Of a stretch of DNA of 20,383 nt, positions 2,111-20,383 are shown one piece after another (the first letter of the stretch is position 1; each line of letters starts with the position of its first letter). The translations under genes and the position numbers were made by a program. A model generated the notes under the pieces. The model searched no databases and was not told where the DNA came from. It was given only the letters and a program-made list of their open reading frames with translations. Location: the IMG/VR virus record IMGVR_UViG_3300035698_012845, positions 1 to 20,383 of that record; one strand, given 5' to 3'. The DNA comes from a virus.

Positions 2111-3301
2111 TTATATTTTTACTATTACCTGCATATCATTGAATGTATAATCGAACATAGACATACGCCTTAACAAGTTAGACTTAGACGAATAACCTGT
2201 TTTCTCAAGAATAGTATCACAATGTTCTTTGTTTTTATATGATTCATGAATAATTCGATCTCTTTCACTAGCAGAACGACGGATAGCCAATCTTTTTTTT
2301 AATCCCATCTTTTTCATTCTATAGGATGGATTAAAGTTTAAAAGTTTATTGATTTCTTCTTGCGTATGACCATTCTCGTATAATTTTTTAATATACGCAT
2401 CACTTACTTCCTCTCGTTTCATCCATTTCCCTGATTCGCCATATCGAGGCATTTCAAGGGCTTCTTCAAAACTCTTGCCGCTTTTAATTCTAGCTCTCAT
2501 CATAGAATAGTCAATTTTTAGGTAAAAACACCATTCTTTCAATAACTTGATTTTACCATCATATGGAATACCATAAGTGTTTAACATGGCAGCATGTCTA
2601 TTTTTTTTCATTAACTCTTTAGTTGAAATTAAAAAACAATTCATAGGATTAAATTCTTTTTTGCCTGCTTTTATATCAATAGTTTTCCCTTTTTCCCACC
2701 TATGAAGTTCTAACCATTTTATGAAATTGCTAGCTGAATTTCTCCATAGATCACAACATGTATATCCATTTGCCCCATAGATAGAAAAAGATTGACTTTT
2801 AGGATTATGACACTTATGTACTAACGCTATCCACAGCTTATAAGCGAAATGACTAGATAAGTTATGTTTAGAGGGATATAAGCTAGCGTTTACGTAACGA
2901 GAGTTATTTTTACAAACATAACATCCACAACTAATAGTATGGCCTTTTCTAATAGAATCAGCAGCAACCCAAATTTTAGAACCACATTCGCAAATGCAAA
3001 ACCATTCTCTATATTTATGGCCATTAGTCCACTCAGAGATTCGCCACTTATCTTGAACATTAAGGCGACCAAATTTCTTACCCCCAATATAAAATTCACT
3101 TCTTCTAAAAACACAATTAGGACATTCATAAACAAAGCCTGCTGATAAATCAGATTGGCGACGAATAAACTTTTCTTTGCAATCACATTCCAAGAGATAT
3201 TCTTTAGAAGGATATTTCCTAGTATCATTTTTTCTATAATGTCTATTGATTACAGTCGTACGACCAAATCTGTTACCGATAAGGTTTAAGGGAGCAGGCA
3301 T
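2111..3301 (-). CDS. Second HNH-type endonuclease-family protein, antisense
   Basis: This 396-residue protein belongs to the same family as the gene in the terminase. It has a GRTTVI...CDC unit at the N terminus with C60/C63, a GRLNV...CICECG...SCGC unit (about 78-128), then a nuclease-like domain (153-228) with LWIALVHKCHNP, SIYGANGYTCCDLW and a TIDIKAGKKEFNPMNC segment. Residues 240-285 resemble the small DNA-binding module (YDGKIKLLKEW...GKSFEEALEMP) often joined to such nucleases. Residues 300-345 look like a helix-turn-helix. The expected IDRxD catalytic signature is replaced by IDIKAGK, so activity is uncertain. AGGAAT lies upstream of the ATG. The gene sits between terminase and portal and runs against late transcription. 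Confidence 0.75.
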   Translation of the reverse strand: MPAPLNLIGNRFGRTTVINRHYRKNDTRKYPSKEYLLECDCKEKFIRRQSDLSAGFVYECPNCVFRRSEFYIGGKKFGRLNVQDKWRISEWTNGHKYREWFCICECGSKIWVAADSIRKGHTISCGCYVCKNNSRYVNASLYPSKHNLSSHFAYKLWIALVHKCHNPKSQSFSIYGANGYTCCDLWRNSASNFIKWLELHRWEKGKTIDIKAGKKEFNPMNCFLISTKELMKKNRHAAMLNTYGIPYDGKIKLLKEWCFYLKIDYSMMRARIKSGKSFEEALEMPRYGESGKWMKREEVSDAYIKKLYENGHTQEEINKLLNFNPSYRMKKMGLKKRLAIRRSASERDRIIHESYKNKEHCDTILEKTGYSSKSNLLRRMSMFDYTFNDMQVIVKI

Positions 3302-3544: not shown

Positions 3545-5671
3545 ATGTTAAATGATAGAGAACTGCTTGGAGAATTCCAAGAAAATTATAGATATGCTCA
3601 TGACTATTGGAGTCCATTTGTTAAAGATGCGCAAGTATATACGCTTGCATCATCTGGTTATACATGGAGAAATGACGAGTTAAAAGCGCTTCAAAAAGAA
3701 GGGCGAGAACCACTTGAACTAAATATCATGAGGAGACCATTACAGTTCTTTTCGGGATATCTAAGAGACAACCTAAATAGTGTTGTTATATCGCCTGTAG
3801 AAGGTAGCGATCAAAAGACAGCAGATCAATTTACAAAATTAAGTTATTACACATGGGATAAGGGCGAAGGATACTCAACTTTCCTAGATGCATGTGACGA
3901 GGGATTCAAATCGGGGATATCGCTATGTGGGCTTAGAATGGACTATTCGAGAGACTTCATAAATGGAGAGATCTCTTTCTTCAAGAGAACATATAATTCG
4001 TTCTTTCTAGATCCAACATTTGAAAGAATAGACTTAAAAGATTGTGGCTTTGCAGTTACAAGAGATTTAATGGATAGGAATATCATAGGCCAGCTCCTTC
4101 CGTTTATAGATCCTAAGCAAATAGCAGATATTCATACATCATTTAGAGATGATAAGTTCCTATCATATCACCCTAACTTTACAGTACTTAGCAGAAACAG
4201 AAACCTCCTAGCATACGATCAATATTACAGACGTATATCAAAGAAACGCAAATTTTTAGTAGACCAGGAAAGCTCATATTATAGAGATATAACAGACCTC
4301 GAGCCAGAAGAAAGAAAGAAACTAGAGACTGGGATTTACAGAATACGCAAATTACATGAAGAAGCAGAAATGTTAGGTATCGAAAAGCGTGATTTACCCC
4401 CCATTGTAGATATACAAACCGTTGACAGGGATTTCATTGAACTAAATATAATGTTGAATGGCCAACCTGTTTATACAGGAGAAGATAAGACAGGGATAAA
4501 TCAAACGTATCCGTTCGCACCAGTACTATGCTACCTCGAACCGAGTGTATGGGAAGCATCACAAAGGATTCAAGGATTAGCCTCAACGCTTTATTCTGCG
4601 CAGAGACAGTTTAATAAACGGCACATGAAGATTGTGGATATGATGGATAGCACGATATCTACTGGATATAAGTATTTAATCGGCTCTGTACCCGATGTGG
4701 AAGATCTACAACAATCAGGGCAAAACAAGATAATTGGTGTTGATCCTGAGAATGCGCCTGAAGGCTTAAACTCTGTTCAAGAACTTCAAGGAGGAACGGC
4801 TAATCCTTCTTTAATTGAGTATCAAAGCATACTCGATCAGTTAACACTTACATTGTCTAATGTAAATGAATCTGTTTTAGGGATTGACGATAAGGGAAAC
4901 ACACAAGTATCAGGCAGATTAGCACAAGTTAGAATAGGTCAAGGGCTTAGATCAAACCGAAAAATATTTGATAACGTAGAAGTCACCCAAAAGGTCTTAG
5001 GTGGCTTAGTCCTTAAAGCAATTCAAAATCATTATCCTCCAGGAAAAGTAAAGCGAATTATCGGAGAAGAGCCAACCGAACAATTCTATAAAAAAGAATT
5101 TGAGCAATACGATGCAGTTATAAAAGAAGGCGTAAGATCACAATCACAAAAAGATGCTTATTACTATGAACTAGTAAATCTTAAGCGAGAAGGAATAGTT
5201 GATGTACCACAAGGCGAGATAGTTAAATCACTGCAAATGGCTGGCATGTCGGATCTCGAGGAAGCGATTTCTAAACAGGAACAGCAAGCACAGCAACAAG
5301 CACAAGAAACACAAAGAAAACAAGATGATCTTATAGCAGCGACAACAGCGGAGAAGAACGCATTAGCGCATGAGAGAGATACAAGAGCAGATGCAAATGA
5401 AGGCTTAAGAATCGAGAGAACATCGGAGGCAGTTCAGAACCAGAGCTTAGCAGAACTGAATAAAGCAAAAGCTATCGTTGAGCTTTCTAAACTACATGAA
5501 GATAGGCTTATACAGGCATTAGAACTTGTTAACCAAATACATGTGCAAGAGCAAGAACAAATTGCTCAAAAAGAGGGCTTAGTAGATGCAGAATCAGAAA
5601 AAGAAGCAAGTAAGCCTCAAGGACAAGTTAATGCAACGCAACAAGCGTCTCCTCAACAAATTCAACCATAA
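3545..5671 (+). CDS. Portal protein, P22-like family
   Basis: A 708-residue protein, close to the usual 700-725 of P22-type portals. Residues 1-60 give an N-terminal helix (ELLGEFQENYRYAHDYW), residues 60-95 a LELNIMRRPLQFFSGYLRDN stretch resembling the start of the P22 portal clip and wing region, and residues 110-150 the FLDACDEGFKSGISL block. Residues 565-690 are Gln/Ala/Glu-rich and predicted helical, as in the long barrel of this family. Twelve copies would form the ring for DNA entry and exit and the base for tail assembly. The ATG at 3545 is preferred because AAGGTGG (3536-3542) fits it; the in-frame GTG at 3539 lies inside that site. It stands after terminase and before scaffold, the standard order. 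Confidence 0.85.
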   Translation: MLNDRELLGEFQENYRYAHDYWSPFVKDAQVYTLASSGYTWRNDELKALQKEGREPLELNIMRRPLQFFSGYLRDNLNSVVISPVEGSDQKTADQFTKLSYYTWDKGEGYSTFLDACDEGFKSGISLCGLRMDYSRDFINGEISFFKRTYNSFFLDPTFERIDLKDCGFAVTRDLMDRNIIGQLLPFIDPKQIADIHTSFRDDKFLSYHPNFTVLSRNRNLLAYDQYYRRISKKRKFLVDQESSYYRDITDLEPEERKKLETGIYRIRKLHEEAEMLGIEKRDLPPIVDIQTVDRDFIELNIMLNGQPVYTGEDKTGINQTYPFAPVLCYLEPSVWEASQRIQGLASTLYSAQRQFNKRHMKIVDMMDSTISTGYKYLIGSVPDVEDLQQSGQNKIIGVDPENAPEGLNSVQELQGGTANPSLIEYQSILDQLTLTLSNVNESVLGIDDKGNTQVSGRLAQVRIGQGLRSNRKIFDNVEVTQKVLGGLVLKAIQNHYPPGKVKRIIGEEPTEQFYKKEFEQYDAVIKEGVRSQSQKDAYYYELVNLKREGIVDVPQGEIVKSLQMAGMSDLEEAISKQEQQAQQQAQETQRKQDDLIAATTAEKNALAHERDTRADANEGLRIERTSEAVQNQSLAELNKAKAIVELSKLHEDRLIQALELVNQIHVQEQEQIAQKEGLVDAESEKEASKPQGQVNATQQASPQQIQP

Positions 5672-5688
5672 ATCTTAGGAGGATATAA

Positions 5689-16062: not shown

Positions 16063-17361
16063 ATGGAAGATAATGATTTAGGGTTTGAACCCGAAGTAAA
16101 AAAACAAACTTTTGGAGAAAATGTTAAATCAAATATTGGATATGCAAGTAAAAAGTTTGTTGGTGAAGCAATAGGTGGAATAGGAAGTTTAACAGAATTA
16201 ATAACAAATCTTCCATATATAGGTAATATAGCTGGAGGAGCGTTAGGAAAAACGGCAGCAAAGCTTTTACCTAAAGTAGAAGGAGTTGAAAAAGGCTTTG
16301 AAAAGATTTTAGGCAGAGAATTTAAACCAACTGGAACAATATCAGAAATATTAGGTGAAGCAGCGGGATTTGGAGGAGGTTTATTATCATTAGGAGGAAT
16401 ACCTAAAGCAGCAAGTGTAGCAGGTAGAGCAGTCAGAACATTACTAGCAACTGGATTACCAGCAATAGCCTCTGTAATGACTAAGAAAGGCAAGTTGCCA
16501 CCTTGGGTGCAAGCTGGAGCTACTATAGGTACATCTTTATTAGCACATAAATTAACTGGATTAAACGCTAAACAGATAGAAAAGAAATTATATAGCGAAG
16601 CTAGACAAAGTGCTGGCAATTCCAAAATAAATGCTAGACAAAGAATTAGGTCTCCTGGAGCGCAACCATTAAGCTCATTTGAAGAAGAACTAAGAACTTT
16701 AAGGGAAGACATTTTAGTTGGTGGAACAAATCCATCTTATAAAGACCCAACAGTAAAACATATCAACGAATTATTAGATGCTATAACTAAAAATAACGGA
16801 GAATTACCTGTAGCTGACATATTAAGATTTAAAGAAAACATTAATGCAACGAGAAGCACTTTTTTCAAGAGATCACTAACTGGTGAAATTCATGCACCAA
16901 AAGCTAAAAGATTAATTAATGGTTTAAATTCACGAGTAGATACCTTTTTAAATAGATATCAAAATCCAGAATTTCATACTGCATATAGAACTGCTAATTC
17001 TATACATAAAGGAAGAATGGACACTAGAAAGATATATGAATTTTTATCATCCCATGCATTTAATAAAACTAATTCTATGGGAATTGGAGCTGGCTTGGCA
17101 TACACATTGATAAATGGAGCAATGGGGACTTTACTAGGAAAAGCAGCACCAATAGCTGCTGGAGCGCAAACATTAGCCTTTACTAATGCATTAGCAAGGA
17201 ATCCTGGTTTAAGATATGCCCTTAGAGAATTTTTAATAAGTGCATCAAAAGAAGAGTTAAAAGCAACAGGAAAAGCTTTAAATAATCTAGGGAAAGAGGC
17301 AAAAAAAGCTAAATTAGATTTATCTCAATATGAAGATGTTGGTTTTTCCTCTGATGAATAG
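16063..17361 (+). CDS. Ejection protein with several hydrophobic segments
   Basis: A 432-residue protein with AGGAAAT upstream. The N-terminal half has repeated Gly/Ala/Leu segments likely to enter membranes: near 38-70 (IGGIGSLTELITNL, IAGGALGKTAAKLL), 97-138 (AAGFGGGLLSLGGIP, LLATGLPAIASVM) and 148-165. Residues 170-300 are polar and helical. Residues 330-365 hold two more hydrophobic stretches (MGIGAGLAYTLINGAMGTLL, PIAAGAQTLAFTNAL), and the C terminus is basic then acidic. This profile fits a late ejection protein of the gp16 type that crosses the inner membrane. It is the last gene of the cluster, before the minus-strand island. Confidence 0.6.
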   Translation: MEDNDLGFEPEVKKQTFGENVKSNIGYASKKFVGEAIGGIGSLTELITNLPYIGNIAGGALGKTAAKLLPKVEGVEKGFEKILGREFKPTGTISEILGEAAGFGGGLLSLGGIPKAASVAGRAVRTLLATGLPAIASVMTKKGKLPPWVQAGATIGTSLLAHKLTGLNAKQIEKKLYSEARQSAGNSKINARQRIRSPGAQPLSSFEEELRTLREDILVGGTNPSYKDPTVKHINELLDAITKNNGELPVADILRFKENINATRSTFFKRSLTGEIHAPKAKRLINGLNSRVDTFLNRYQNPEFHTAYRTANSIHKGRMDTRKIYEFLSSHAFNKTNSMGIGAGLAYTLINGAMGTLLGKAAPIAAGAQTLAFTNALARNPGLRYALREFLISASKEELKATGKALNNLGKEAKKAKLDLSQYEDVGFSSDE

Positions 17362-17366
17362 CTTAA

Positions 17367-17396
17367 GTTATAACATCCATTCTATGAGGATGTAAC
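17367..17396. terminator. Possible weak bidirectional terminator hairpin
   Basis: ACATCC (17373-17378) pairs with GGATGT (17388-17393) around a nine-base loop, and outer GTT (17367-17369) can pair with AAC (17394-17396) across a three-base bulge. It sits between the end of the ejection genes and the end of the minus-strand genes, where two transcripts converge. There is no good T-run on either side, so this is a weak candidate. Confidence 0.3.
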
Positions 17397-17421
17397 ATTT
17401 CTGTAAAGCGAAGAGATTATT

Positions 17422-17589
17422 TTAATCAATAGCTAAAATAAAAAATATGAATGTAAGGCCTGCTAATCCAGTTATTAATTTAAGAAATGTAATCTCACTC
17501 CTAAAAAAACCAAATATTAAAGAAATACAAATTATGACAATTAATATTCTCAGGAAAATACAAAGTGGCTTTACGTCAAGTCTACCCAT
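17422..17589 (-). CDS. Two-helix membrane peptide (55 residues) in immI-like island
   Basis: This short ORF encodes a very hydrophobic peptide with two predicted membrane segments: residues 9-28 (LCIFLRILIVIICISLIFGF) and about 33-53 (EITFLKLITGLAGLTFIFF and on), separated by a short charged loop (RSE). It has no clear Shine-Dalgarno site but starts 14 bases after the stop of the 101-residue gene, so coupling is possible. In P22, the inner-membrane exclusion protein SieA (about 160 residues) lies at the corresponding place, between the last ejection gene and the repressors. This peptide is much shorter and no homology is claimed. AT-rich DNA can give chance hydrophobic ORFs, so this is a candidate only. 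Confidence 0.45.
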   Translation of the reverse strand: MGRLDVKPLCIFLRILIVIICISLIFGFFRSEITFLKLITGLAGLTFIFFILAID

Positions 17590-17603
17590 TATTTTAAGGG
17601 CAT

Positions 17604-17909
17604 CTAATTGTCATGAAGCACAGTTTCTATTGTGTCACATATTTCACGCAAATCAATAATCTCGTGTCCAATGCAATTATTTTCTTTTATAATAATATTA
17701 GAGATAACCATGTCTACTATTTTCATGCAAGAGCATGGTGGCATCAATTGGACAGCTCTAAATGTATAAATTCTATATTTTTTTCCAGAAGATCCAATAA
17801 AAATTAACGAATAATCCTCATCAGTTGTATTTGTCTTTTCTTGTTTTAATGTGATATGTTCGATGCATTCAAAATTAAATATCTCAACCATGTTTTTTAG
17901 CAAAATCAT
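17604..17909 (-). CDS. Unknown 101-residue protein in immI-like island
   Basis: I do not recognise this protein. It looks soluble and globular, with alternating strands and helices: FNFECIEHITL, EDYSLIFIGSSGKKYRIYTF, CMKIVDMVISNIIIKE, EIIDLREICDTIETVL. Three Cys fall near PCSCM and NNC. AAGGG lies about 12 bases upstream of the ATG, a little far; the second ATG (residue 7) is an alternative. It follows the repressor gene by 64 bases on the same strand and probably shares its transcript. A role in superinfection immunity or antirepression is possible by place alone. Opposite-strand ORFs here lack good start signals. Confidence 0.6.
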   Translation of the reverse strand: MILLKNMVEIFNFECIEHITLKQEKTNTTDEDYSLIFIGSSGKKYRIYTFRAVQLMPPCSCMKIVDMVISNIIIKENNCIGHEIIDLREICDTIETVLHDN

Positions 17910-17940
17910 TATTTAAATTAACCCTTATTTGTATGTTTTT

Positions 17941-17978
17941 AGTGATGTACATAAAGCAAACGCTAGCCACACATCACT
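17941..17978 (-). repeat. Perfect 8-base inverted repeat at the end of the repressor gene
   Basis: AGTGATGT (17941-17948) and ACATCACT (17971-17978) are perfect inverted copies around a 22-base loop. The right arm covers the stop codon of the repressor gene. On the minus-strand transcript it would make a stem-loop between the repressor and the next gene. It is followed by A residues on that strand, not T, so it is not a standard terminator. It may limit read-through, stabilise the repressor mRNA or serve as a protein site. Confidence 0.45.
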
Positions 17979-18123
17979 TTGCCTTAAGTTGTTTGATCTT
18001 TTCTGTTAAAGCAAGTCTAAGCAATTCGGAAAAAGAAGTTCCCGTTAAAAGAGCCATTATCTTAGCTTGTGTATGAATATCAACTGGCAACCAAATAGTG
18101 GTTCGCTTATACATTTTCTTCAT
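17974..18123 (-). CDS. Arc-like ribbon-helix-helix repressor
   Basis: A 49-residue protein, the size of P22 Arc (53). It shows the ribbon-helix-helix plan: a short N-terminal strand (RTTIWLPVD, residues 7-15), helix A (IHTQAKIMALLTG), a turn, and helix B (FSELLRLALTEKIKQLKAK). Such proteins bind DNA as dimers through the strand pair. I chose the ATG at 18123 because the longer reading from a TTG at 18159 would translate through a perfect promoter whose -35 box is that TTG. Transcription would start at the A of this ATG, so the mRNA looks leaderless, as for lambda cI from PRM. An in-frame ATG at 18114 remains possible. Placed between ejection genes and tail gene, as P22 mnt/arc are. Confidence 0.8.
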   Translation of the reverse strand: MKKMYKRTTIWLPVDIHTQAKIMALLTGTSFSELLRLALTEKIKQLKAK

Positions 18124-18126
18124 GTA

Positions 18127-18162
18127 TGTAATTATATACAAATGTTTAGTAATTGTCAATTA
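18127..18162. promoter_or_regulatory. Candidate autoregulatory operator sites
   Basis: A 13-base palindrome, TAATTG-T-CAATTA (18150-18162), covers the -35 box of the repressor promoter. A second inverted pair, TGTA (18140-18137) and TACA (18130-18127) on the minus strand, exactly brackets the -10 box. Either would let the ribbon-helix-helix protein shut off its own promoter. Part of the symmetry overlaps promoter consensus bases, so chance contributes. Confidence 0.45.
18131..18159 (-). promoter_or_regulatory. Perfect consensus sigma-70 promoter for the repressor
   Basis: On the minus strand TTGACA (18159-18154) and TATAAT (18136-18131) are exact consensus hexamers with the ideal 17-base spacer. 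The predicted first transcribed base is at 18124-18123, on the A of the repressor ATG. This is the best bacterial promoter in the window. It points away from the tail gene. Confidence 0.8.
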
Positions 18163-18190
18163 TTTCTTTAAGTTTGCGCATAGTTAGGGT

Positions 18191-18206
18191 ACTTTAAAAA
18201 TAAAGT
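18191..18206 (+). promoter_or_regulatory. Inverted repeat before the tail gene
   Basis: ACTTTA (18191-18196) and TAAAGT (18201-18206) form a perfect inverted repeat around AAAA, seven bases before the ribosome binding site of the tail gene. It could be an operator or an RNA hairpin affecting initiation. I see no convincing plus-strand promoter between 18160 and 18225. Confidence 0.35.
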
Positions 18207-18225
18207 CATTACAAGGAGGACGTAA

Positions 18226-20383
18226 ATGCCTAAATTTAAAAGACCTAATGCGTATGCTTCACCGAAAGCTACAACACAAAGAACAGGTGAAATTAGATTT
18301 GCCACAGCGACTGAAGGAGCAGCAGGGACTAGAACAGACCTAGCTATATCTCCAGCAGTGTTAGACAGTGCGGTAGAATCTTTGATTCAAGATGGAACTA
18401 CTACACAAAAGGGAATTGTTAGACTAGCTACAGTAGCGGAATCGCAGGCTGGTACGTCAGAATTAATAGCAAATACACCAGCTGGATTAGCAGCGGTAGC
18501 GATTGCTGGAGCAACAGATGCTTCAGAAGGAACAAAAGGGATATTAGAACTAGCAACACAAGGTGAAACAAATACTGGAACTGACGATACAAGAGCAGTC
18601 ACACCATTGAAACTAAAGACTAATTTTGCTTCACCACCAGCAATAGGTGGAACAGCACCAGGTTCAGGTGCATTTACAGATTTAGCAGCAACAGGAGTCG
18701 GCACAGGAAATGTTATGACTTCTGATACAGCTTCTAGTTTTTCTGTAACAGGAGCAGCAGCAGATCTAACATTAAATAGTGATGCAGGACGGGTCATATT
18801 AAATGGCGAAGAGGCAATCGACGATGCAGTGACAATAGTATCTGCAGCCGGGGGTATCGATGTAGATGCAGCACTTTCTATTGTTATTAGCTCATCTGAA
18901 AATAGTGCGGATTCTATCTTCATTGAATCTAGTGCTGGAGGAATTGACGTAACAGCAGCGGGTGCAGCAGGCGAAGACATTGATGTCACATGTACAGCAG
19001 GATCAGTAAACATTACAGCTGGAGAGTCCGCATCAGATTCAATTGTTATTACTTCCTCTATTGGAGGAATTGACATTGTGGCAGCTGGAGCAGCAGCAGG
19101 CGAAGATATAGACATTTCTTCAACTGGCTCATCAGTAAATATTTCAGCTTCAGAAAACGCAGCAGATGCGGTTACAATCACAGCAAGCGCTGGAGGAATA
19201 GATATATCGGCTACAGGAACAGCAGGCGAAGATATTGATATTACAGCAACTGGAAGTTCAGTAAACGTAGTAGCAACAGAAGCAGCAGCAAAAGCAATTT
19301 ATTTACATGCAAACGGCGGAGCAGCAGAAACTATCGAGATTCATGCTGACCAAGGAACAGGCGTAGCTAGTGTTAGTCTTCTATCTGATGTTGGAGGAGT
19401 AACTATCTCTGGTGGCGTTGCGAGTGCTGACGCTATAAATATCGTATCTGCAAATGCAGGCGGAGGCATAGATATCGACTCTGGCACAGCAGGAACAATC
19501 ATGGATTCTACAGGTGCTATATCACTAGATGGTGCAGCAGCTTCCAATTTCTCAGTAGGTGGAGCAGGAATTGACCTTACTCTTTCTAGTGCAGCAGGTA
19601 GAGTTGACATAGCAGGTGGAGAAGCACTTGATGATGCAATTACTATACAAGCAGCAGCAGGCGGAGTGGATATTGATGGAATATTACAAATAAATATTGC
19701 TTCAGCAGAAGCTCAAGCGGATGCTTTAGTAATTAATTCCTCAGCAGGTGGTATGGATATCTCTTGTGATGGAGCAGCGTTAGACTTAGACCTAAGTTCT
19801 ACAGCAGGTAGAGTTAATGTAACAGCTGGAGAAGATGCAGCAGATGCTATATATCTTCATGCTGATGCTGGAACAAGTGAAACAATAAGACTACATTCAG
19901 ATCAAGGAACTGGAGCAGATTCAGTTGAACTAGAATCAGATGTTGGTGGGATTACGCTTAAATCTGGGTTAGCTTCTAGTGATGCTATTAATTTAGAATC
20001 TACTGTTGGTGGCTTAGACATTGATACAGCTTTAGATATTGTAATTACATCAACAGAAAATGCAACTGATAGTATTTATATACATGCAAATGGTGGAGCA
20101 ACTGAGCAAATAAGACTTCATGCTGATCAAGGAACAGCAGTTGGTTCGATACAGTTAGAATCAGATGTTGGTGGGTTAACGTTGTTATCGGGTCTTGCGC
20201 ATGATGATGCAATCAACCTTACAGCAAGTGCTGGCGGCTTGGATCTTGACGGAGCTTTACAAGTAAACATAGCTTCATCCGAAGCAGCAGCGGATGCTAT
20301 AGTAATTTCAGCCTCTAATGCAGCAGGAGGAATTGATCTTACTACAGGTGGCGGATCAGTTGATATCAGTTCAGCAGGTTTTG
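18226..20383 (+). CDS. Repetitive tail fibre protein (3' end beyond window)
   Basis: Open for 719 codons with no stop, preceded by a perfect AAGGAGGA. After a basic start (MPKFKRPNAY) come three tandem units of the phage tail-fibre repeat type, about residues 18-130 (TGEIRFATATEGAAG...LAISP; KGIVRLATVAESQAG...IANTP; KGILELATQGETNTG...AVTP). Then a PPAIGGTAPGSGAFTDLAATG linker, common before fibre shafts, and a very long Gly/Ala/Ser/Asp/Ile-rich array with SAGGIDI-type strands spaced as in a beta-solenoid. Residues 225-351 contain three clear tandem repeats of 42-43 residues. This would be the receptor-contacting fibre or spike. No P22 tailspike head-binding domain is visible. The receptor tip is not in the window. 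Confidence 0.8.
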   Translation, partial: MPKFKRPNAYASPKATTQRTGEIRFATATEGAAGTRTDLAISPAVLDSAVESLIQDGTTTQKGIVRLATVAESQAGTSELIANTPAGLAAVAIAGATDASEGTKGILELATQGETNTGTDDTRAVTPLKLKTNFASPPAIGGTAPGSGAFTDLAATGVGTGNVMTSDTASSFSVTGAAADLTLNSDAGRVILNGEEAIDDAVTIVSAAGGIDVDAALSIVISSSENSADSIFIESSAGGIDVTAAGAAGEDIDVTCTAGSVNITAGESASDSIVITSSIGGIDIVAAGAAAGEDIDISSTGSSVNISASENAADAVTITASAGGIDISATGTAGEDIDITATGSSVNVVATEAAAKAIYLHANGGAAETIEIHADQGTGVASVSLLSDVGGVTISGGVASADAINIVSANAGGGIDIDSGTAGTIMDSTGAISLDGAAASNFSVGGAGIDLTLSSAAGRVDIAGGEALDDAITIQAAAGGVDIDGILQINIASAEAQADALVINSSAGGMDISCDGAALDLDLSSTAGRVNVTAGEDAADAIYLHADAGTSETIRLHSDQGTGADSVELESDVGGITLKSGLASSDAINLESTVGGLDIDTALDIVITSTENATDSIYIHANGGATEQIRLHADQGTAVGSIQLESDVGGLTLLSGLAHDDAINLTASAGGLDLDGALQVNIASSEAAADAIVISASNAAGGIDLTTGGGSVDISSAGF
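18898..19278 (+). repeat. Three tandem 126-129 base coding repeats in the tail fibre
   Basis: Copies at 18898-19023, 19024-19152 and 19153-19278 each encode 42-43 residues of the pattern E-x-A-A-D-x-x-x-I-x-S-x-x-GGIDI, then AAGEDIDI and GSVNI. DNA has diverged at third positions, so the duplications are not recent. Confidence 0.7.
19297..20233 (+). repeat. Dispersed super-repeat in the tail fibre
   Basis: A second module starts at 19297, 19849 and 20074 (residues 358, 542 and 617). It has the form IYLHA-x-GG/AG...E-x-I-x-LHADQGT...SDVGG-x-T-x-x-SG-x-A...DAIN. Between copies lie other duplicated units, such as LQINIASAEA near 19684 and LQVNIASSEA near 20260. Confidence 0.65.

Follow-up and report, generated by a model that had tools for sequence, protein, structure and literature searches.

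In IMG/VR virus record IMGVR_UViG_3300035698_012845 (20,383 bases, examined in full and called the window here), a block of three minus-strand open reading frames (ORFs) lies between virion genes and a tail fibre gene. The last large virion-side gene to the left (positions 16063 to 17361, plus strand, 432 aa) occupies the position of gene 16 in phage P22. Family searches returned no match for it, and a search of viral contigs returned no relative. The tail fibre gene to the right (18226 to 20383, plus strand; phrog_910, E = 3.5e-25) is incomplete, and the record ends there. The original prediction had placed the block between ejection genes and the tail gene. The slot is real and the right-hand gene is a tail fibre gene, but an ejection identity for the left-hand genes is suggested by gene order and a glycine-zipper segment, without a convincing family match.

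All three minus-strand ORFs were present as predicted, and none matched Ant, in line with the prediction. The first encodes a 49-aa ribbon-helix-helix (RHH) protein (17974 to 18123, minus strand, ATG at 18123); the boundary given earlier, 18162, corresponds to an upstream TTG start of the same ORF. As a single sequence, the protein matched phrog_3180, "Arc-like repressor," at E = 0.002, and single-sequence matches were weak. We then compared a profile of 21 same-position orthologues with solved structures and found RHH-type proteins exclusively among the matches listed: the CopG-family structure 9kkd at E = 6e-5, and also ORF56, E73, ParG, and omega. The AlphaFold model reached a pLDDT of 94; it is a monomer, so the strand is unpaired. 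With this model, Foldseek ranked CopG first and Arc further down, with weak E values throughout because the protein is short. Both the profile and the model gave the strand-helix-helix fold of about 45 residues, and on this evidence the 49-aa protein is an RHH protein. When the profile was aligned to P22 proteins with hhalign, Mnt scored an E value of 0.004 and Arc 0.09. The label "Arc-like repressor" is thus supported for the RHH fold but not for a specific relation to Arc, which by these comparisons is no closer than CopG or ORF56. A search of cultured phages with the RHH protein gave no match.

The second gene of the leftward block encodes an orphan protein of 101 aa (ORF call, 17604 to 17909, minus strand). 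No ORF of at least 100 aa appeared in 400 shuffles, so its length exceeds chance. It had been described as unknown, and it remained without a relative in every library searched, including viral contigs and cultured phages. Its single-sequence fold (pLDDT 57) was too poor for a structure search. The last gene encodes a 55-aa peptide (17422 to 17589, minus strand) that adjoins the 3' end of the left virion gene. The predicted two-helix membrane peptide is borne out to the extent that there are two strong hydrophobic segments (19-residue means of 2.94 and 2.26), but the ORF could be a chance one. By chance, this stretch would contain about 0.37 ORFs of at least 55 aa, and the opposite strand has an overlapping 70-aa ORF; the case for a real gene therefore rests on position and composition. 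Family searches with the peptide gave no match. Codon usage was uninformative as a test of these ORFs, as even the RHH gene scored low. We found no intrinsic terminator in 17300 to 18300.

Other features of the window lie outside the block. The terL gene (1 to 1914) seems interrupted, with its middle part at 1 to 120 and its C-terminal part again from about 1084. Between the parts is a 299-aa ORF (186 to 1085) of endonuclease-like appearance. The same CxCG-type repeats occur in a 396-aa ORF (2111 to 3301, minus strand) between terL and the portal gene, for which an NCBIfam search gave no match. In the related genome G001 (L014), the major capsid gene is split by about 330 nt (27931 to 28265), possibly an intron. 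Rfam searches of the window and of G001 gave no match, and thus no Rfam intron match at terL.

Pairing of RHH and fibre genes among relatives

We collected relatives by scans with the RHH protein, a gp7-like protein, and fibre N termini. An alignment of 19 fibre sequences was too diverse for scanning, and a 7-sequence version worked. The relatives form one uncultured phage group, and the portals of the first three are about 68% identical to that of the window. A portal-based genome scan added two contigs from metagenome-assembled genomes (L058 and L059), which may be misbinned. In Pseudoalteromonas phage vB_Pun_Y3, a cultured relative by its capsid, there is no annotated gene between the neighbours and the tail fibre gene.

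In 36 of the 38 records with a resolved fibre start (21/22 and 15/16), the fibre gene has an RHH gene facing it on the opposite strand; L051 and L092 are the exceptions. The start-to-start distance is 92 to 142 nt in 34 of these 36, with a median of 108 nt; in L025 and L108 it is about 365 nt because another gene sits between the promoter and the RHH gene. No two fibre N termini were at least 90% identical, and the fibre proteins of the window and its relatives have a common N-terminal domain, beyond which their internal repeat arrays differ. The linkage could partly reflect common ancestry. RHH divergence correlated more strongly with fibre divergence (r = 0.35, p = 0.002) than with that of the structural gene for the gp7-like protein (r = 0.22, p = 0.015).

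The sequence behind the RHH gene was far less uniform. Nothing precedes the neighbouring virion gene in 11 of the 36 records (L032, L034, L038, L039, L040, L047, L048, L052, L054, L087, and L096), terL follows in 5 (L090, L091, L103, L106, and, after one additional gene, L089), and cargo genes follow in 20. In the terL class, terL runs in the same direction as the RHH gene and is followed by the portal gene, so that the entire structural block has a changed orientation with respect to the fibre gene; the RHH gene is the first gene of the structural operon and usually overlaps the terL start. Cargo includes a DUF29 protein (L006), a PDDEXK_5 protein (L030), a DUF551 protein (L036), serine recombinases (L005 and, again behind the RHH gene, L093), and numerous small membrane proteins. 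Of the small cargo ORFs, 38% had a hydrophobic segment, compared with 16% of small ORFs elsewhere in these phages (Fisher p = 0.001). The cargo membrane proteins had no match in cultured phages.

Two repetitive features of the slot proteins are worth recording. A family of small proteins with one hydrophobic segment and a "KDFHGRLCAIEERR"-like tail is found both inside and outside the slot, with as many as five copies in one phage (G002 at 5243 to 5688, 16994 to 17442, and 19774 to 19995; also L022, L025, L036, and L108), and had no match in cultured phages. A 254-aa slot protein of L053 (10349 to 11113, minus strand) contains near-perfect "NCSSLIGDCSEL" repeats.

We also compared RHH genes from cargo-free records. 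The pairs L034/L047 and L039/L048 gave dN values of 0.146 and 0.157, with dS saturated and beyond estimation. These values indicate that the cargo-free RHH genes are under purifying selection and functional without cargo. Judged from gene content, the conserved unit is the RHH gene plus the fibre gene, and whatever genes follow the RHH gene can be exchanged. Because the RHH gene is kept opposite the fibre gene in 36 of 38 records whatever lies behind it, it probably acts as a local control at the tail fibre gene and not just as the first gene of an immunity island. The original prediction had proposed looking for other gene sets in the same slot, and these were found; it had also suggested a different exclusion or immunity system in this slot. 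The content of the slot does vary, but the pair that is conserved is RHH and fibre, not RHH and an immunity cassette. An integrase or serine recombinase was recognizable in 3 of 25 virus records searched, several of them incomplete. Since most records show no integration gene, lysogen immunity is unlikely as a general role.

The control region between the two genes

We examined the region between the divergent starts for signals that might be common to the group. In the window, a leftward sigma-70 promoter of perfect consensus, TTGACA-17-TATAAT (18131 to 18159, minus strand), ends its -10 box 7 nt before the RHH ATG. Transcription should therefore start at or next to the start codon. Only two perfect matches with a spacer of 16 to 18 occurred on both strands of 1.1 Mb of relatives, and the window promoter is one of them. 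Among the 36 records, -10-like boxes peaked 6 to 7 nt before the RHH ATG (9/36), with at most 5 at any other pair of adjacent offsets. Shine-Dalgarno-like 4-mers preceded 7 of 36 RHH genes versus 31 of 36 fibre genes. The simplest reading of these patterns is that RHH mRNAs are leaderless, though some records do not fit.

RHH transcription factors bind an operator as dimers or tetramers. A candidate operator, the imperfect inverted repeat GTATATAATTACATAC (18124 to 18139, minus strand), overlies the -10 box, and the window contains no further site within two mismatches. The first 16 nt of the intergenic region are 94% common to the window and L053. Over the whole set, inverted repeats clustered near the RHH start and were modestly better than in shuffles (p = 0.02); perfect repeats were found in L029 (TTGAATAATTATTCAA) and L048 (TGACATAATTATGTCA). 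Sites of the AATTGAATAA type occurred in 10 of 36 intergenic regions against 0.39 expected, with a core that was chosen after inspecting the sequences. They adjoin solo, cargo, and terL arrangements alike, and the site has remained beside the promoter in L025 and L108, where a gene now separates it from the RHH gene. The candidate operators that we tested did not recur elsewhere in the sequence searched. This restriction to the RHH-fibre site points to a local autorepressor, not a genome-wide regulator.

On the fibre side, a conserved motif, ACTTTAAAAATAAAG (18191 to 18205, plus strand), lies about 30 to 45 nt before the fibre start and is possibly part of the fibre promoter. It lies some 50 to 70 nt from the candidate operator, so a direct effect of operator binding on fibre transcription is not obvious. 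A similar motif, of the GTTAAAATTTTAAC type, precedes the portal gene in a few genomes (G004, G006, and G007) and not in most. Because this occurrence was inconsistent between genomes, we do not claim a late-promoter family.

Models for the locus and comparison with known systems

The gene order in P22 is gene 16 (plus strand), sieA, ORF59, and mnt (all minus), and then arc, ant, and gene 9 (all plus). Thus, the block in the window has the place and strand of mnt-ORF59-sieA, with the RHH gene in the Mnt position. The earlier comparison, that P22 holds sieA, mnt, arc, and ant in the same place, is right about the slot between gene 16 and gene 9, but only mnt-ORF59-sieA forms the minus-strand block, and arc and ant are plus-strand genes. 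This part of P22 goes by the name "ant moron," and P22-like phages differ greatly in it (PMC2629481; PMC8022706). In PMC2629481, the moron is reported to influence tailspike level, an effect called possibly accidental; it is proposed to affect the number of late transcripts that extend to the tailspike gene, and Mnt and Arc may play a part in this. Phage L retains a mnt-like gene without sieA, arc, or ant, and this lone gene was read as repurposed or as a remnant (PMC8022706). P22 SieA has about 164 aa and three predicted membrane segments (PMC10883804).

For the window, we lean towards an RHH protein that acts as a local autorepressor and is coupled to the fibre gene. The leftward slot is exchangeable, and in the window it may hold an exclusion-type membrane peptide. 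After phage DNA entry, host sigma-70 RNA polymerase would fire the leftward promoter, and a leaderless mRNA would yield the RHH protein, along with the 101-aa and 55-aa proteins in the window phage. The RHH protein would bind the candidate inverted repeat over its own -10 box and turn the leftward promoter off, so that leftward expression would be a short pulse. Binding might also alter transcription opposing or preceding the fibre gene and so set the fibre level, which would be a dedicated form of the tailspike-level effect ascribed to the P22 ant moron in PMC2629481. The cargo would be a moron that varies between phages and often includes a small membrane protein; by analogy with SieA, the 55-aa two-helix peptide could counter superinfecting DNA at the inner membrane. 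That the RHH-fibre pairing is near universal and includes cargo-free forms suggests that fibre-gene control is the conserved role and cargo is optional. Gene order, RHH-fibre conservation, cargo turnover, selection on cargo-free genes, the promoter, the missing Shine-Dalgarno sequences, and one local operator-like site are read from the DNA; from there we infer autorepression and its timing, what binding does to the fibre gene, and how the cargo functions. The five relatives in which the RHH gene leads into terL speak against an autorepressor, as simple autorepression would also dampen late genes.

The same observations bear on other readings of the locus. Were it truly an island for exclusion or immunity, as immI is, the RHH protein would regulate cargo alone and the 55-aa peptide, with or without the 101-aa protein, would block superinfecting phages. 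The order and strand of P22 mnt-ORF59-sieA and the enrichment of the slot in small membrane proteins agree with this, but it is unlikely given RHH genes that stand without cargo (11/36) or before terL (5), the absence of integrases from most records, and a 55-aa peptide without homologues whose ORF may have arisen by chance. Conversely, fibre dosage control could be the sole function of an RHH protein dedicated to the divergent fibre gene, with the leftward genes as passengers. The near-universal pairing at fixed spacing, the selection on cargo-free RHH genes, the conserved motif before the fibre start, and the P22 precedent (PMC2629481) argue for this; the candidate operator lies at the RHH promoter and not at the fibre-side motif, and the membrane-protein enrichment implies that cargo may not be passive. 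We hold so narrow a role to be possible, if somewhat unlikely.

It is quite unlikely that the RHH gene is the sole real gene and stands beside a variable gap in which decay or chance has produced the 101-aa and 55-aa ORFs. Neither ORF has homologues and 55-aa ORFs do arise by chance, but shuffles never yielded a 100-aa ORF and the slot in relatives holds clear cargo, such as the DUF29, PDDEXK_5, and DUF551 proteins. A type II toxin-antitoxin pair, with the RHH protein as antitoxin and the 101-aa protein as toxin, would account for the RHH fold and for a RelB-type model match (E = 0.024) that fell far short of the cutoff. However, family searches matched no toxin family, and the RHH protein lacks a C-terminal extension. 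Because no recognizable toxin was found and the RHH gene often stands alone, we rejected this explanation as highly improbable.

In P22, the stretch ahead of the tailspike gene is a textbook immunity locus (Arc, Mnt, and SieA), yet PMC2629481 calls its tailspike effect possibly accidental. We tentatively raise the idea, though it may well be wrong, that the RHH protein is a conserved, dedicated controller of tail fibre dosage across a large set of uncultured phages that have P22-type portals, and that P22 mnt/immI is a derived tail-gene control site with added immunity cargo. If so, the tailspike effect in P22 would be explained. The parts of the locus are ordinary; the conservation of the RHH-fibre pair is unusual. 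The group is a natural experiment, in which the RHH gene persists opposite the fibre gene under purifying selection in cargo-free genomes and keeps its place when other genes, even a terminase operon, are substituted behind it. This persistence makes RHH control of a receptor-binding protein directly testable. The slot beside the conserved pair also marks a place to seek small membrane proteins for exclusion or host takeover.

Some small inner-membrane proteins of phages, such as HK97 gp15 and T4 Imm, act in superinfection exclusion. The 55-aa peptide, with its two hydrophobic segments, would resemble these and P22 SieA as a small phage protein of the inner membrane, but we found no sequence relation to them. 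CopG and ORF56, the closest solved folds, are likewise short RHH repressors; they act in plasmid copy control and, unlike the window RHH gene, have no link to a virion gene.

On the autorepressor reading, the island is a variant of the P22 "ant moron." Like P22 immI, it fills the slot between the last ejection gene (here presumed from position) and the tail gene, its minus-strand block begins with an RHH gene and ends with a membrane-protein gene, and its content varies between phages of the group. P22 has ant under the control of arc and mnt, whereas the window has no ant match, no plus-strand arc, and no recognizable sieA, and its RHH protein is not demonstrably Mnt or Arc. Expression of the P22 moron is independent of the late operon, and the perfect sigma-70 promoter of the window block might allow this too. 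The window phage has a P22-type portal (Pfam P22_portal, E = 1.5e-49) but a capsid of the N4-gp56 family. The moron comes in ten types among 16 P22-like phages, several of which have none (PMC2629481), whereas the RHH gene is near universal in the window's group. Phages L, ST64T, and ST104, with a reduced moron of a mnt-like gene and one unknown ORF, are similar to our group in keeping an RHH gene without sieA, arc, or ant. Their mnt-like gene has been read as repurposed or as a remnant, whereas the cargo-free RHH genes of the window's group are under purifying selection.
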